From Phycisphaeraceae bacterium (lineage in GTDB: Bacteria > Planctomycetota > Phycisphaerae > Phycisphaerales > Phycisphaeraceae): a stretch of DNA of 64,000 nt. Of the stretch, positions 19,337-27,659 are shown one piece after another. Below the pieces are notes generated by a model. It saw only the letters and a program-made list of their open reading frames with translations, was not told where the DNA came from and did no database searches. Each line of letters begins with the position of its first letter. Position 1 is the first letter of the stretch. The stretch covers positions 62,001 through 126,000 of the forward strand of contig JADLFV010000031.1 of the NCBI GenBank assembly GCA_020849625.1. The letters run 5' to 3'. The translations under genes were made by a program, and so were the position numbers.

Positions 19337-19957
19337 TTACTCTTTGCTCGGCGATGAGTTGCTGATGTGAAAGGCCTGCTGGGCGCTGTGGGTGATGCCG
19401 GTCAGGTCCGTGACGGTGACCTTGACGGTGAGCTCCGCAGGCGCTTCCGGGGGCAGCGACAACTCCAGCGTGTAGTGCGTGCCGGTCAGGCCCGTGCGAT
19501 AGGCGGCATCGAAGTCGTTCGGCTCGAAAACCTTTTCCTGGTAGAGCTTCGGCGGCTGGCCCTCGCTCAGTTCCACCATCTGCACGTTGGCGCGGGCGGA
19601 CACGGGCATCATGCGGCCGAGTTGATCGAGCGTGCGGACGTACAGGCGCAACGAATCATCGCGGCCGTTGCCGTCGCTGTCGATGGGGCCCGTGTAGCGA
19701 TCGAGCTTGATCATGGAAAACACGGGCGCCCCCGCCCCCGGAAGCGATTCAGCACCGTTGGTCTGAACAGCGCGTAAGGCTGCAATCTCGCCGCTGCGCT
19801 GCTGCAACTGCTGCTCCAGTTCCGCGACGCGGCGCTGAAGCTCCAGGCGCTCGGCCCGCAACTGGTCGTTGTCGTTCTTGAAGTTCTTCGGACCGCAGCC
19901 GGACAGCAATGAACAAAGGACGATGGCAGATAGCAGATGGCAGATGGCAGATGTCAT
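19337..19957 (-). CDS. Lipoprotein with coiled coil, unknown function
   Basis: 206 aa from the ATG at 19957; a longer frame would run far into clpP and is rejected. MTSAICHLLSAIVLCSLLSGC is a lipoprotein signal ending in the lipobox LLSGC. A coiled coil follows (about 27-55, leucine/glutamine-rich heptads), then a beta-rich domain of about 130 residues beginning SMIKLDRYTGPIDSDGNG. No family is recognised. The start codon lies directly behind the clpP stop, so the two are probably co-transcribed. The signal peptide is encoded by a short-period repeat. Confidence 0.75.
   Translation of the reverse strand: MTSAICHLLSAIVLCSLLSGCGPKNFKNDNDQLRAERLELQRRVAELEQQLQQRSGEIAALRAVQTNGAESLPGAGAPVFSMIKLDRYTGPIDSDGNGRDDSLRLYVRTLDQLGRMMPVSARANVQMVELSEGQPPKLYQEKVFEPNDFDAAYRTGLTGTHYTLELSLPPEAPAELTVKVTVTDLTGITHSAQQAFHISNSSPSKE
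19922..19953. repeat. Short-period repeat (AGATGGC type) inside a signal peptide
   Basis: Four imperfect heptads of GCAGATG/GCAGATA type on the + strand. In the opposite strand they encode the first residues of the lipoprotein signal (SAICHLLSAIV). Confidence 0.65.
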
Positions 19958-24024: not shown

Positions 24025-25101
24025 ATGCTCTTAGCCTCACTTATGCCGGCCGAATGGTTCGCCACACGCGAGACGTGGCTGCTATTGATATTCGTGGTGC
24101 TGGCCATGGCCCTGGTGATCAAGGGCGCCGACTGGCTGGTCGAGGCGGCCGCCGCTTTGGCCATGCGACTGGGCATGCCCAAGGTCGTCGTCGGCGCCAC
24201 CATCGTCTCACTGGGTACCACCAGCCCCGAATGTGCCGTCAGCGTGCTGGCGGCTTGGTCGGGCAACAGCGGCCTGGCATTGGGCAACGGCGTCGGGTCC
24301 ATCATCGTGGACACCGGCTTGATCTTCGGTCTCGGCGCGCTTCTGTGCGCTTTGCCCGCTGATCGCTTCGTACTCTCACGACAAGGTTGGGTGCAGGTCG
24401 GCTCGGCCGCACTGCTCAGCGCGCTGTGCTATGGAGCGTTCATGCTGCACGGCGATGCGGCGACCATCGGCCGATCCGTCGGCATCCTCCTGGTCGCCCT
24501 GCTGGTGGTCTATCTGATGTTGAGCGTACGCTGGAGCAGGACCCATCCCGCCAACGAGCCGCGCCTGATCGCGGAGGGCGACCAGGTGCAGGTGCAGAGC
24601 GAACTGCATGAAGCGCCCGCCCAGCGCGGCATGTTCGCGCTGGTTGTCAGCGGGGTCATCGGCCTGATCATGGTGATCGTGGCCGGTGATGGCCTGGTCG
24701 CGTCGGTCAGCGTGGTGGCCGAACGCTGGGGCATGCCGCAGACGGTCATCGCCGCCACCCTCGTCGCCTTCGGCACCTCGCTGCCCGAACTGATCGTGGG
24801 CATGACCGCCATCCGCAAGGGTCACCCCGCCCTGCTGGTGGGCAACGTCATCGGAGCTGACATCCTTAACGTGCTGTTCGTCATCGGAGTCTCAGCCCTG
24901 GCTGCGCCGCTGGAGGTCGTCGAGGACGGCAACCGGATTTTCCTGCATCTGCACCTGCCCACCATGCTGGTCATGCTGCTGCTGTTTCGTCTCTACATCG
25001 CCGCCGCCGTCCGCCGCGGCCGCTTCAGCCGCTGGATGGGCGCACCGCTGGTGATGATGTATGTTGCCTACGTCATCATCCAATACGCGGTCTCATCATG
25101 A
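24025..25101 (+). CDS. Na+/Ca2+ exchanger family antiporter (YrbG/CaxA-like)
   Basis: 358 aa from the ATG at 24025. About ten membrane helices are arranged as two homologous halves. The alpha-repeat signatures are VSLGTTSPECAVSVLAAW in the first half and VAFGTSLPELIVGMTAI followed by GNVIGADILNVLFVIG in the second. The Glu in each GT(T/S)xPE is the cation-binding residue. The protein exchanges Ca2+ for Na+ or K+ across the inner membrane. The stop overlaps the start of the aspartic protease gene (ATGA). Confidence 0.9.
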   Translation: MLLASLMPAEWFATRETWLLLIFVVLAMALVIKGADWLVEAAAALAMRLGMPKVVVGATIVSLGTTSPECAVSVLAAWSGNSGLALGNGVGSIIVDTGLIFGLGALLCALPADRFVLSRQGWVQVGSAALLSALCYGAFMLHGDAATIGRSVGILLVALLVVYLMLSVRWSRTHPANEPRLIAEGDQVQVQSELHEAPAQRGMFALVVSGVIGLIMVIVAGDGLVASVSVVAERWGMPQTVIAATLVAFGTSLPELIVGMTAIRKGHPALLVGNVIGADILNVLFVIGVSALAAPLEVVEDGNRIFLHLHLPTMLVMLLLFRLYIAAAVRRGRFSRWMGAPLVMMYVAYVIIQYAVSS

Positions 25102-26114
25102 AACAAATTCCCAATGACCAATTCCCAATGACCAAGACGCCACTGGCCTCGGCATTGGTCATTGGTCATTGGTCGTTGGTCATTTGCCTGTTCAGCTTCG
25201 CCCTGCTGCTTTTCAGTTGCGCCGCGCAACCCTATGCCCCCCAATCGCAGCAGAATCTGCACAACATCCGCCCCACCACCGCGCCGCTGATGCCGGTCGG
25301 CGGCTTCCAACTTCTGGACGTGCACGTCAACGGCCGCGACGGCGGACGATTCATGCTCGACACCGGCAGCAACCTCTGCCTGATCGATCGCGGCGCCGCC
25401 GCTCGTCTCGAACTGCCCGTCACCGGCCAGGGCCAGGCCCTCGGCGTCGCCGGCGCCGAATCGTTCGACTATTGCACCATAGACAATCTCAGCATCGAGG
25501 GCTTCAGTCTGCCCCCGCGCACTTTGGGCGCGGTCAACCTCTTCGCCATGCGACGCAGCGGCGCGCCCATGGCCGGCATCCTCGGCTTCAACGCCCTGGC
25601 CCAGGAATGCTTCACCATCGACCCCCGGAAGCGAACGCTCACCATCGGCGACTCGTGGGATGACTCGATCCACAGCGAACCGCTGCTGCTGATCAACCGC
25701 CTGCCCGCCGTGCGCGTGAAACTGGGTCGCCGCGAAGCCGTCCTGATCCTCGACACCGGCGCGGACAATGAACTGACGCTGCACGCCGAAGCCGTGCGCG
25801 GCTGGCCCGACATCTTCAGCGTGCCGCAGACCGGCTCCGGCATGTCGCGCGGCATGGGCGGCGTCGTGGCCGGCTCACGCACCTGGGTCAAACAAATCAC
25901 CGTGCTGGGCGTATCGATCCAGGACGTGGCTGTCAGTGTCGATCCAACACCGCCAGGCCTCAACCGCCACACCCCGGTAGCCGGCCGCGTGGGCAACGCC
26001 GTGCTGCGCAACTTCCTGCTGACCTTCGACGCCCCCCACAACCGCATCGGAGCCAAGTGGCTTCCGATAATCGAAGACAACAAATCACAGTCACAACCCG
26101 CCGGCGGTCGATAA
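25098..26114 (+). CDS. Lipoprotein with tandem retropepsin-like aspartic protease domains
   Basis: 338 aa. The first 45 residues form a lipoprotein-type signal ending LLLFSC. Two retropepsin-like domains follow, each with its own Asp-Thr-Gly: FMLDTGSNLCLID near residue 86 and VLILDTGADNELTL near 218. Each domain has the hydrophobic-Gly flap order, so the chain could fold into a pseudo-dimeric protease in the cell envelope. Residues 2-30 are encoded by a short-period inverted repeat (25104-25187), so the signal peptide appears to have been assembled from repeat DNA. Substrate unknown. Confidence 0.75.
   Translation: MKQIPNDQFPMTKTPLASALVIGHWSLVICLFSFALLLFSCAAQPYAPQSQQNLHNIRPTTAPLMPVGGFQLLDVHVNGRDGGRFMLDTGSNLCLIDRGAAARLELPVTGQGQALGVAGAESFDYCTIDNLSIEGFSLPPRTLGAVNLFAMRRSGAPMAGILGFNALAQECFTIDPRKRTLTIGDSWDDSIHSEPLLLINRLPAVRVKLGRREAVLILDTGADNELTLHAEAVRGWPDIFSVPQTGSGMSRGMGGVVAGSRTWVKQITVLGVSIQDVAVSVDPTPPGLNRHTPVAGRVGNAVLRNFLLTFDAPHNRIGAKWLPIIEDNKSQSQPAGGR
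25104..25187. repeat. Inverted short-period repeat (CAATGAC type) inside a coding start
   Basis: The left arm has units CCCAATGACCAATT; the right arm has CATTGGTCATTGGTCATTGG. They pair as a long hairpin with period 7. The left arm codes for PNDQFPMTK and the right for ALVIGHWSLVI, the hydrophobic core of the signal peptide. Confidence 0.85.
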
Positions 26115-26121
26115 CAACAGC

Positions 26122-26511
26122 GTGCGGATCGAACCCTATGAGCGGCAGAGTTCGTGGCGCAAGGCGATGAAACTCGCTGCCACGATGTATCGCATCACCC
26201 AGGATTTCCCGCAAGAGGAAAAGTCCGGCCTGACCGCGGCGATCCGAAGACTGGCCACGGCGATACCCGGCAAACTCGCCGACGCCCACGGCCACGTCGA
26301 AGCTGATGCCGCCATCAAGTCCTTCGAGTCGGTCCAGGCCACGCTGCGCGAACTGCAATCGACGCTGCAGATCGCGGCCATGCTCGACATGCTCTCGCAC
26401 TTCCGCCTGCACCGGCTGCGCGGCCAGTGCCAGAAGATCGACGACCTGATCGAGGACAGCATCGAGACTTGCCGCCTCCACCGCGAGGCGATGGCCAAAG
26501 AGGCGGCATGA
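26122..26511 (+). CDS. Four-helix bundle protein (S23 family)
   Basis: 129 aa, GTG start 7 bp after the protease stop. The order of four helices matches the S23 ribosomal-associated/four-helix family: WRKAMKLAATMYRITQDFPQEEKSGLTAAIRRLATAIPGKLADA, then ESVQATLRELQSTLQIAAML. Typical members share FPxxExxGLxxQxRRAxxSIPxNIAEG. It is more diverged here (GKLADAHG replaces NIAEG). These proteins were first noted inside 23S rRNA intervening sequences, but many, as here, are free-standing. Molecular role unknown. Confidence 0.7.
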   Translation: MRIEPYERQSSWRKAMKLAATMYRITQDFPQEEKSGLTAAIRRLATAIPGKLADAHGHVEADAAIKSFESVQATLRELQSTLQIAAMLDMLSHFRLHRLRGQCQKIDDLIEDSIETCRLHREAMAKEAA

Positions 26512-26615: not shown

Positions 26616-27659
26616 ATGAGCAAAGTGACGCTAACCAAGGTGCTGATCGTGGGCGCCGGGCCGATCGGCCTGGAGCTGGCGGCGTGTCTCAAGCACGCCG
26701 GGGTGGACTACCTGCACGTCGAGGCGGGACAGATCGGCCAGACCATGAGCTGGTATCCCATCAACGCCCATTTCTTCTCCAGCCCCGAGCGCATCGCCAT
26801 CGCCGGTCTGCCTCTGCACGCGCCCGATCAGAGTAAGACCAGCCGCGAGCAATATCTCACTTACCTGCGCGGCGTCGTCGAATACTACGACCTGAAAATC
26901 CGCACCTACGAGACGGTCACCCACATCCAGCGGCTGTCGCCAACCGGTTTCCACGTCACCACCACCAAGACGGTCTATCACGCGGACAATCTGGTGCTGG
27001 CCATCGGCGACATGCACGGGCCGCGGAAGTTGAACATTCCCGGCGAGGACCTGCCGCAAGTCAGTCATTATTTCGTTGAGCCGCACCGATACTTCCGCCA
27101 GAAGCTGCTGATCGTGGGCGGGCGCAACAGCGCGGTGGAGGCTGCCTTGCGTTGCCAGCGGGTGGGCGCTTACGTCACGCTAAGCTACCGCCGGGCCGAT
27201 TTCGACCTCGAGCACATCAAGTACTGGCTGTACCCCGAACTCAAGAGCCTGATCCGGGCCGGCAAGATCACGTTCAAGCCGCAGACTGTTCCCGTTGAAA
27301 TCCACGCTGATCACGTGGTGCTGCATTCGCCAATCGAAAATCGCCAATCGAAAATCCCCAGCGATTTCGTGCTGCTGCTGACCGGCTACGTGATGGACAG
27401 CAAACTGTTCGAGCTGGCGGGCGTGACGCTCAAGGGTGAAAACCGCGCCCCGGTGTACGATCAGGAGACCATGCAGACGGACGTGCCCGGGCTGTACGTG
27501 GCCGGCACCGCCGCCGCCGGCACGCAGGTGCGCTTCCACGTGTTCATCGAGAACAGCCATCCCCACGTCGCTCGTATCGTGCAGGCCCTGACCGGGTCGC
27601 CCCCGCCGGACGGCCTGGTCAACCCCGTGGCCCGCGACTTCGCCCTGCCTGAGAGCTAA
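26616..27659 (+). CDS. YpdA-like FAD/NAD(P)-dependent oxidoreductase
   Basis: 347 aa. The first dinucleotide motif [10 protein letters not shown] is at 12-21. [20 protein letters not shown] resembles the flavin-adjacent block of YpdA, the bacillithiol disulfide reductase family. The second nucleotide motif [12 protein letters not shown] is near 168, and the C-terminal [20 protein letters not shown] completes the FAD site. No CxxC redox pair is visible, as in YpdA. Electron acceptor unknown. Residues around 225-236 ([11 protein letters not shown]) are encoded by two units of a 13-base short-period repeat, probably an in-frame insertion between strands. Confidence 0.8.
27329..27357. repeat. Short-period repeat (CAATCGAAAATCG) within a gene
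   Basis: Two tandem 13-14 base units, CAATCGAAAATCG and CCAATCGAAAATCC, lie in frame inside the YpdA-like gene and encode IENRQSKIP. Confidence 0.7.

Follow-up and report, generated by a model that had tools for sequence, protein, structure and literature searches.

A heptanucleotide hairpin in the signal peptide of a Phycisphaeraceae lipoprotein gene and its probable relation to S23-type elements with inverted periodic repeats

The hairpin at the start of the protease gene

The window, i.e. the whole stretch of 64,000 nt of Phycisphaeraceae DNA that was analysed, contains a Na/Ca exchanger family gene (PF01699; 23962-25101, + strand), an aspartyl protease (PF13650) lipoprotein gene (25098-26114, + strand) and a divergent S23 / 23S_rRNA_IVP gene (PF05635; 26122-26511, + strand), in this order. 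The ATG of the protease gene (25098) shares bases with the TGA that ends the upstream exchanger gene (25099-25101), so confirming an earlier note which placed this start codon within the preceding stop. Codons 3-30 of the protease gene are made up by a hairpin (25104-25186), which has the anatomy of an inverted periodic repeat, two inverted arrays of 7-9-nt units around a loop. Its left arm (25104-25135, + strand) consists of the heptads CAAATTC, CCAATGA, CCAATTC and CCAATGA followed by CCAA, and its right arm (25153-25186, + strand) of three copies of CATTGGT followed by CGTTGGT and CATTTG, while the loop between them (25136-25152, + strand) is 17 nt long and geneless. The arms are imperfect, with CCAATGA/CCAATTC on the left facing CATTGGT on the right.

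That a hairpin of CAATGAC/CATTGGT units exists at the start of this gene, as had been claimed from the letters of the DNA, is borne out by its arms, its periodicity, simulations and RNA folding. A repeat finder paired 25104-25135 with 25155-25186 (32 nt, 84% complementary), thus setting the start of the right arm at 25155 as compared to 25153 when delimited by eye. Both arms are periodic at 7 nt, and arrays of 7 and 14 nt were reported by Tandem Repeats Finder. A chance origin of the heptad run in the protease gene can be ruled out, as the top lag-7 run in the window reaches 20 of 21 positions, while the maximum in 200 first-order simulations of 64 kb was 18. When folded as RNA, the segment 25098-25195 reaches -42.7 kcal/mol (z -6.5), and none of 200 shuffles equalled this value. 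The borders of the insertion, or any later changes to it, are uncertain, since the 83 nt of the hairpin are not a multiple of three.

The coding properties of the two arms, polar residues on the left and ALVIGHWSLVI on the right, had been read correctly, and they follow from the unit. Because a 7-nt unit moves the reading frame by one with each step, an array of CATTGGT is translated into the same heptapeptide (HWSLVIG) in all three frames, and an array of CCAATGA into PMTNDQ followed by a stop, so that the polar nature of the left arm and the hydrophobic nature of the right arm are a property of the repeat unit itself. The left arm escapes the TGA stop by an alternation of CCAATGA with CCAATTC. 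By eye, the protein possesses an n-region, a hydrophobic core and a lipobox cysteine, but the CLFSFALLLFSC core and the lipobox are found just beyond the hairpin, with LFSFALLLFSC not contained in it. The hairpin is therefore confined to codons 3-30 and does not make up the signal as a whole.

The protease was matched in 31 of 61 related genomes. Conservation of the repeat among orthologues, one of the checks proposed in the earlier note, could be dismissed, as none of 16 loci shows lag-7 periodicity (at most 12 of 21 positions), and by eye at least 14 of these 16 have a lipobox in their upstream part. As the orthologues carry a lipobox and lack the repeat, the protease family was exported before the repeat arrived, and the suggestion that the repeat has been captured as an export signal is not supported. 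Judged from this comparison of sequences, the hairpin appears to have been inserted into an existing signal peptide, a permissive place, which it now lengthens.

Related hairpins and S23 genes between inverted arrays

The pattern CATTGGTCATTGG, with one mismatch allowed, has 42 matches in the genome, as compared to 2 for a reversed control. They include about ten hairpins, which always have CCAAT on the left and ATTGG on the right; the unit is common to all hairpin copies, the order and length of the arms vary, and the loops of the other hairpins appear unrelated by eye. A second unit, CTAATGT (35 matches in this genome vs 0 for the reversed control), is found in five short hairpins (C31:20k, C48, C50, C75 and C109), and also as a pair about 500 nt apart on C68 that encloses a PF05635 gene. 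In the C48 hairpin, CCAATGA-type and CTAATGT units are mixed within one arm. Short forms of more than one period occur in this genome, since the window also contains an intergenic hairpin of 9-nt units (CGCAGAGAA type; 2028-2117, no strand assigned). Two further heptad arrays in the window are one-armed. One of these (19920-19957, - strand) is part of a second lipoprotein-like signal (MTSAICHLLSAIVLCSLLSGC); the other (27324-27362, + strand), composed of AATCGAA/AATCGCC, is located in an oxidoreductase gene (PF13738), and no inverted partner was found for it. The latter array codes for PIENRQSKI, and its end is like the right arm of an S23 element on C50 (L076).

Three conserved exported genes are started by hairpins among the 16 arrays examined: the protease gene, a lipoprotein gene (C31:33k; matched in 55 of 61 genomes) and a gene for a DUF1570 protein (C55; 54 of 61). 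A search of this genome for other genes that begin likewise had been suggested, and the last two, together with the one-armed array at 19920-19957, are such cases. The repeat is absent from 14 orthologue loci of the C31:33k lipoprotein and from 16 of the C55 protein, most of them having a signal by eye. The most straightforward interpretation is that an insertion persists if it falls in a part of the protein that can accommodate it, for example a signal peptide. These data support the earlier view that a repeat of a dispersed, mostly intergenic family has come to lie inside a coding sequence at an export signal.

Of 149 genomes of the phylum, 10 contain a 20-base CATTGG array (one mismatch allowed). 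All 10 also possess S23, which is found as PF05635 in 77 of the 149 overall (p=0.0015). In another Planctomycete (G175), CATTGG arrays about 490 nt apart enclose a PF05635 gene (E 5.6e-16), and their units, CCAATGA/CATTGGT, have the same left/right order as in the protease hairpin. The protease hairpin thus shares its unit with an S23-bearing element and belongs to the same family, and CTAATGT, which surrounds an S23 gene in the present genome, is a related unit. There are six PF05635 genes in this genome, five of which are flanked by inverted heptad arrays, with a unit that differs from gene to gene; an S23 gene with purely CCAATGA arms was not found among them. The S23 gene of the window (26122-26511), only 1 kb from the hairpin, has no arms, its flanks being free of periodic arrays.

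This arrangement extends far beyond a single genome. Among 33 Planctomycete S23 loci (35 were taken, and L097 and L104 were left out for their short flanks), 28 are periodic in the 300-bp flanks of both sides at the same period, which is 7 in 21 loci, 8 in five, one of which (L083) has low-complexity arms, and 9 in two. The flanks of protease genes, which served as controls (L069 left out), were periodic in 0 of 28 cases. An S23 profile scan of GTDB contigs gave at least 591 matches, the best 80 of which represent numerous bacterial phyla as well as Methanophagales archaea. With five of these 80 set aside because they lack flanks, both flanks show periodicity in 62 of 75 loci (at 7 in 47, at 14 in 6 and at 8 in 9), as compared to 3 of 115 control windows displaced along these loci. 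With a looser cut-off, and again without L097 and L104, a common period is seen in 97 of 113 loci (81 at 7, 14 at 8 and 2 at 9), and a common period of 5, 6 or 10-13 in none of the 113. The two arms of an element fit each other, as in 82 of the 97 loci their pairing exceeds the 95th percentile obtained after swapping arms of equal period. The median length of the full S23 element is about 459 nt.

Elements inserted within genes

Elements of this type are also found inside protein genes, with the host frame intact. In one genus (g34), the gene for DNA polymerase III alpha (dnaE-type) harbours an S23 element with 8-nt units in two species (G042 and G206), and the polymerase frame is open through the element in both, while G037 and G204 have the dnaE-type gene and lack the S23 element, so that related species differ by its presence or absence. 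The octad differs between G042 and G206 in both arms together (GGAGGCAC vs GGAGAGAC). The dnaE-type gene of G042 (L108 471-4499, - strand) carries, besides the S23 element, a second short insert of the same octad, both being in frame. A short octad hairpin is also found in frame in a gene of G046 that, by eye, resembles that of a tRNA-dihydrouridine synthase.

In a second genus (g99), a Type III-like methyltransferase gene is occupied at one site by an S23 element in five species, with an open host frame and with a unit that changes in both arms. This site seems to be a shared landing site. At the same site, three more species (L213, L214 and L215, from G214, G212 and G177) have unrelated inserts of about 85 nt, and the insert of a Desulfobacteraceae bin (L128) apparently lies at the same place as that of g99. 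Two comparable sites were looked at for an exact target-site duplication, and their flanks are too diverged.

Ten same-strand cases in which another frame is open across the element were identified in the 113 loci, and relative to that frame S23 occupies the +1 frame in all ten. Nine of them are independent, as L080 and L085 represent one orthologous insertion, and four antisense open frames (L173, L075, L095 and another of L105) are left out of the host count. For the frame relation of the +1 cases, that frame is open in 15 genes, as compared to 3.7 expected from synonymous shuffling. The hosts match methyltransferases of Type III, Type IIG, DISARM or BREX kinds in 7 of the 9 independent cases (L128, L130, L136, L142, L170, L082 and L080/L085), with weak Pfam matches only for the identity of the L130 and L142 hosts. 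The remaining two hosts are the polymerase, assigned by Pfam, and an apparent leucyl-tRNA synthetase, assigned by eye, the gene of which carries its S23 element in frame in a Treponema bin (L137 1839-3392).

Origin of the hairpins and comparison with known repeats

Of several possible explanations, we favour one where the hairpin in the protease gene is a short, gene-less copy of an S23-type element with inverted periodic repeats, and we consider this to be probable. The full form of such an element, about 460 bp in length, has two inverted arrays of a 7-, 8- or 9-nt unit with an S23 gene (PF05635) in the loop between them. The sequence of the unit varies from element to element, but its period is retained and the arms stay complementary. 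Full and short forms both land at gene edges or in frame within genes, and a short copy of 83 or so nt would have landed in the first codons of the lipoprotein gene, an insertion that may have been tolerated because the right arm is hydrophobic (LVIGHWS) in every frame, because the left arm dodges TGA and because signal peptides are permissive. The S23 protein may bind to the repeated units of the stem and may drive or enable the spread of full and short forms alike, possibly by way of RNA or single-stranded DNA. To our knowledge, S23 has no catalytic function; it is pentameric in its two solved structures, those of the relatives 2GSC and 2RLD, with five chains per solved entry. Speaking against the favoured explanation are the armless S23 gene 1 kb from the hairpin, the lack of purely CCAATGA arms around any S23 gene found in this genome, the octad hairpins of G037, which has no S23, and the 761 kb sampled from four S23-rich genomes, in which neither a short hairpin nor an S23 element turned up. 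For the wider reading, that hairpins of this kind are the S23-less short form of a widespread class of elements, the support from anatomy is good and that from mechanism weak.

Alternatively, heptad hairpins might be independent of S23 genes, which would insert into their loops, so that the hairpin would be the target of the element rather than a part of it. Hairpins without S23 do occur, many of them in the present genome, and octad hairpins are present in G037, from which S23 is absent. We nevertheless think this explanation unlikely, as arms with periods of 7, 8 and 9 all exist and cluster on the S23 tree, which is expected if the arms travel with the gene. The tree requires 10 changes of period, as compared to a mean of 14.2 upon shuffling, with a value as low in 0 of 200 shuffles, which is weak evidence because the tree, based on 105 columns (L140, L184, L190 and L205 were omitted due to a stop in the translated stretch), is poorly resolved. 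Also, hairpins that lack S23 are absent from the sampled DNA of S23-rich genomes: 761 kb from four of these contained neither short hairpins nor S23 elements, a result of limited bearing on the short forms since about 2.5 S23 elements were expected and these, too, were missed. The density of short hairpins was 0 in S23-rich and S23-free genomes alike, the samples being too small.

In a further explanation, which we hold to be quite unlikely, the hairpins would be mobilised either like REPINs, by a Y1 (RAYT) transposase, or like retro-elements, by a reverse transcriptase, and S23 would be a passenger or helper. This would be in line with the likening of S23 to the Avd accessory protein of diversity-generating retroelements (PMC10053308), with the one RVT_1 and four Y1_Tnp matches of this genome, and with the presence of reverse transcriptase in 53 of 77 S23 genomes vs 33 of 72 others (p=0.005, uncorrected for genome size). 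However, an RVT_1 match is absent from 24 of the 77 S23 genomes, and G042, which is rated 100% complete, lacks RVT_1 and Y1_Tnp alike in spite of its S23 element and its short hairpins, which led us to dismiss either enzyme as a universal mobiliser.

Equally improbable to us are ordinary tandem heptads that originate by polymerase slippage, independently of S23, and are paired by chance or by inversion. Several bacteria have an excess of heptads, for which an origin by slippage has been proposed (PMC4692102), and the variable arm length and unit order among hairpin copies would suit such a process. Against it stand the arms around S23 genes, which share a period and are mutually complementary in the 62 loci mentioned above, and the joint change of the unit in both arms of orthologous elements. 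Furthermore, a detector of inverted pairs of period 7, 8 or 9 is positive in 89 of 115 S23 loci. When random stretches from eight genomes of the same phylum, 1.43 Mb in total, were scanned at the same threshold, periods 7 and 8 gave no pair at all, and the only hits were two period-9 pairs in GC-rich low-complexity DNA. Finally, it is highly improbable that the export signal of the protease arose from the repeat itself, as the earlier note had it, for even though the greater part of the n-region and some of the hydrophobic run are encoded by codons 3-30, and two other genes of this genome have similar repeat-bearing signals, the orthologues of all three genes have export signals but no repeats, and the core is outside the hairpin.

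The favoured explanation, a gene-less copy of an S23-type element, has to be set against repeats that are already known. The intervening sequence (IVS) of Coxiella burnetii is 428-444 nt in length, with a 28-bp stem and with GACAGAT heptads preceding the S23 frame, and it resembles our elements in its S23 family protein, its size, its terminal inverted repeats and its heptameric repeats; proposals that IVSs are mobile are cited in the same paper (PMC4990558). IVSs have been described in rRNA genes and are characterised by excision through RNase III, whereas the elements reported here occur between and inside protein genes, have arms that are set by period and not by sequence, and exist in gene-less short forms. 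The protease hairpin differs in two respects, as it lies in a protein gene rather than an rRNA gene and has no S23 ORF inside its terminal stem, which other elements of this genome do have. The S23 domain is also described from rRNA insertions of CPR bacteria (PMC11270868), and in the parts available of three other papers the S23 family is mentioned only (PMC8700078, PMC11637426, PMC10910872). With the exception of the Coxiella remark, we found in the open-access literature, to which our search was confined at the exclusion of subscription journals, no link between S23 genes and flanking heptad arrays, and nothing relevant on a signal peptide of this repeat or on heptads in Planctomycetes.

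Heptad arrays are otherwise known from Xanthomonas (GGGAATC) and Nostoc (GGGGA(C/T)T), often as convergent inverted pairs near gene ends (PMC4692102), and in our data heptad arms are found at S23 loci from Nostoc and from a Xanthomonas bin. In contrast, that paper, in the text available, ties the heptads to quadruplexes and names no enclosed gene. The TAACTGA repeats of Beggiatoaceae and the cyanobacterial STRRs are heptad arrays near gene starts, encoding one peptide in all frames, but these are direct repeats, almost never inverted, with a proposed regulatory role (PMC4679880). The protease hairpin, in having an inverted partner, is not such a tandem-only STRR.

REPINs and MITEs are short inverted pairs that spread with the help of a distant gene (PMC3116915). 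REPINs and their RAYTs are characterised by conserved 16-mers and a Y1 transposase, unlike the hairpins of this study, which have no conserved sequence and no recognisable transposase, with arms that vary in order and length and with hairpins in G042 in the absence of a Y1_Tnp match. The palindromic elements of Rickettsia are palindromes inserted in frame in genes, but they are repeats of conserved sequence rather than heptad arrays, and are not known to contain S23.

The link to S23 joins two old puzzles. One is the dispersed heptanucleotide repeats of bacteria, on the origin of which we know of no agreement, and the other is the S23 protein of rRNA intervening sequences, for which we know of no function. 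Each S23 gene gains a testable partner in the repeat unit of its own arms, and the prediction is that the S23 protein would recognise the period and not the sequence. The entry of such repeats into coding sequence can be harmless, as the peptide encoded by a 7-nt unit is the same whatever the frame, and a repeat sequence of this kind is accepted by signal peptides and methyltransferase loops. S23-type hairpin elements are a widespread and little-noticed kind of inserting DNA.

A more far-reaching possibility, which we put forward tentatively and would not yet call the probable one, is that S23/IVP represents the core of pan-prokaryotic mobile elements with no recognisable transposase, the ends of which would be set by a 7/8/9-nt period and by self-complementarity, not by sequence. 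Gene-less hairpins would spread in trans, and the elements would write themselves in frame into host genes, favouring methyltransferases of restriction, BREX and DISARM systems, with S23 read in the +1 frame. If this is true, the heptad repeats that have been known for decades from cyanobacteria, Xanthomonas and others would be the remains of S23 elements. There are probably more heptad families, as the reversed control pattern of the search for CATTGG arrays, itself a heptad array, has 11 and 12 matches in two other genomes (G099 and G196).
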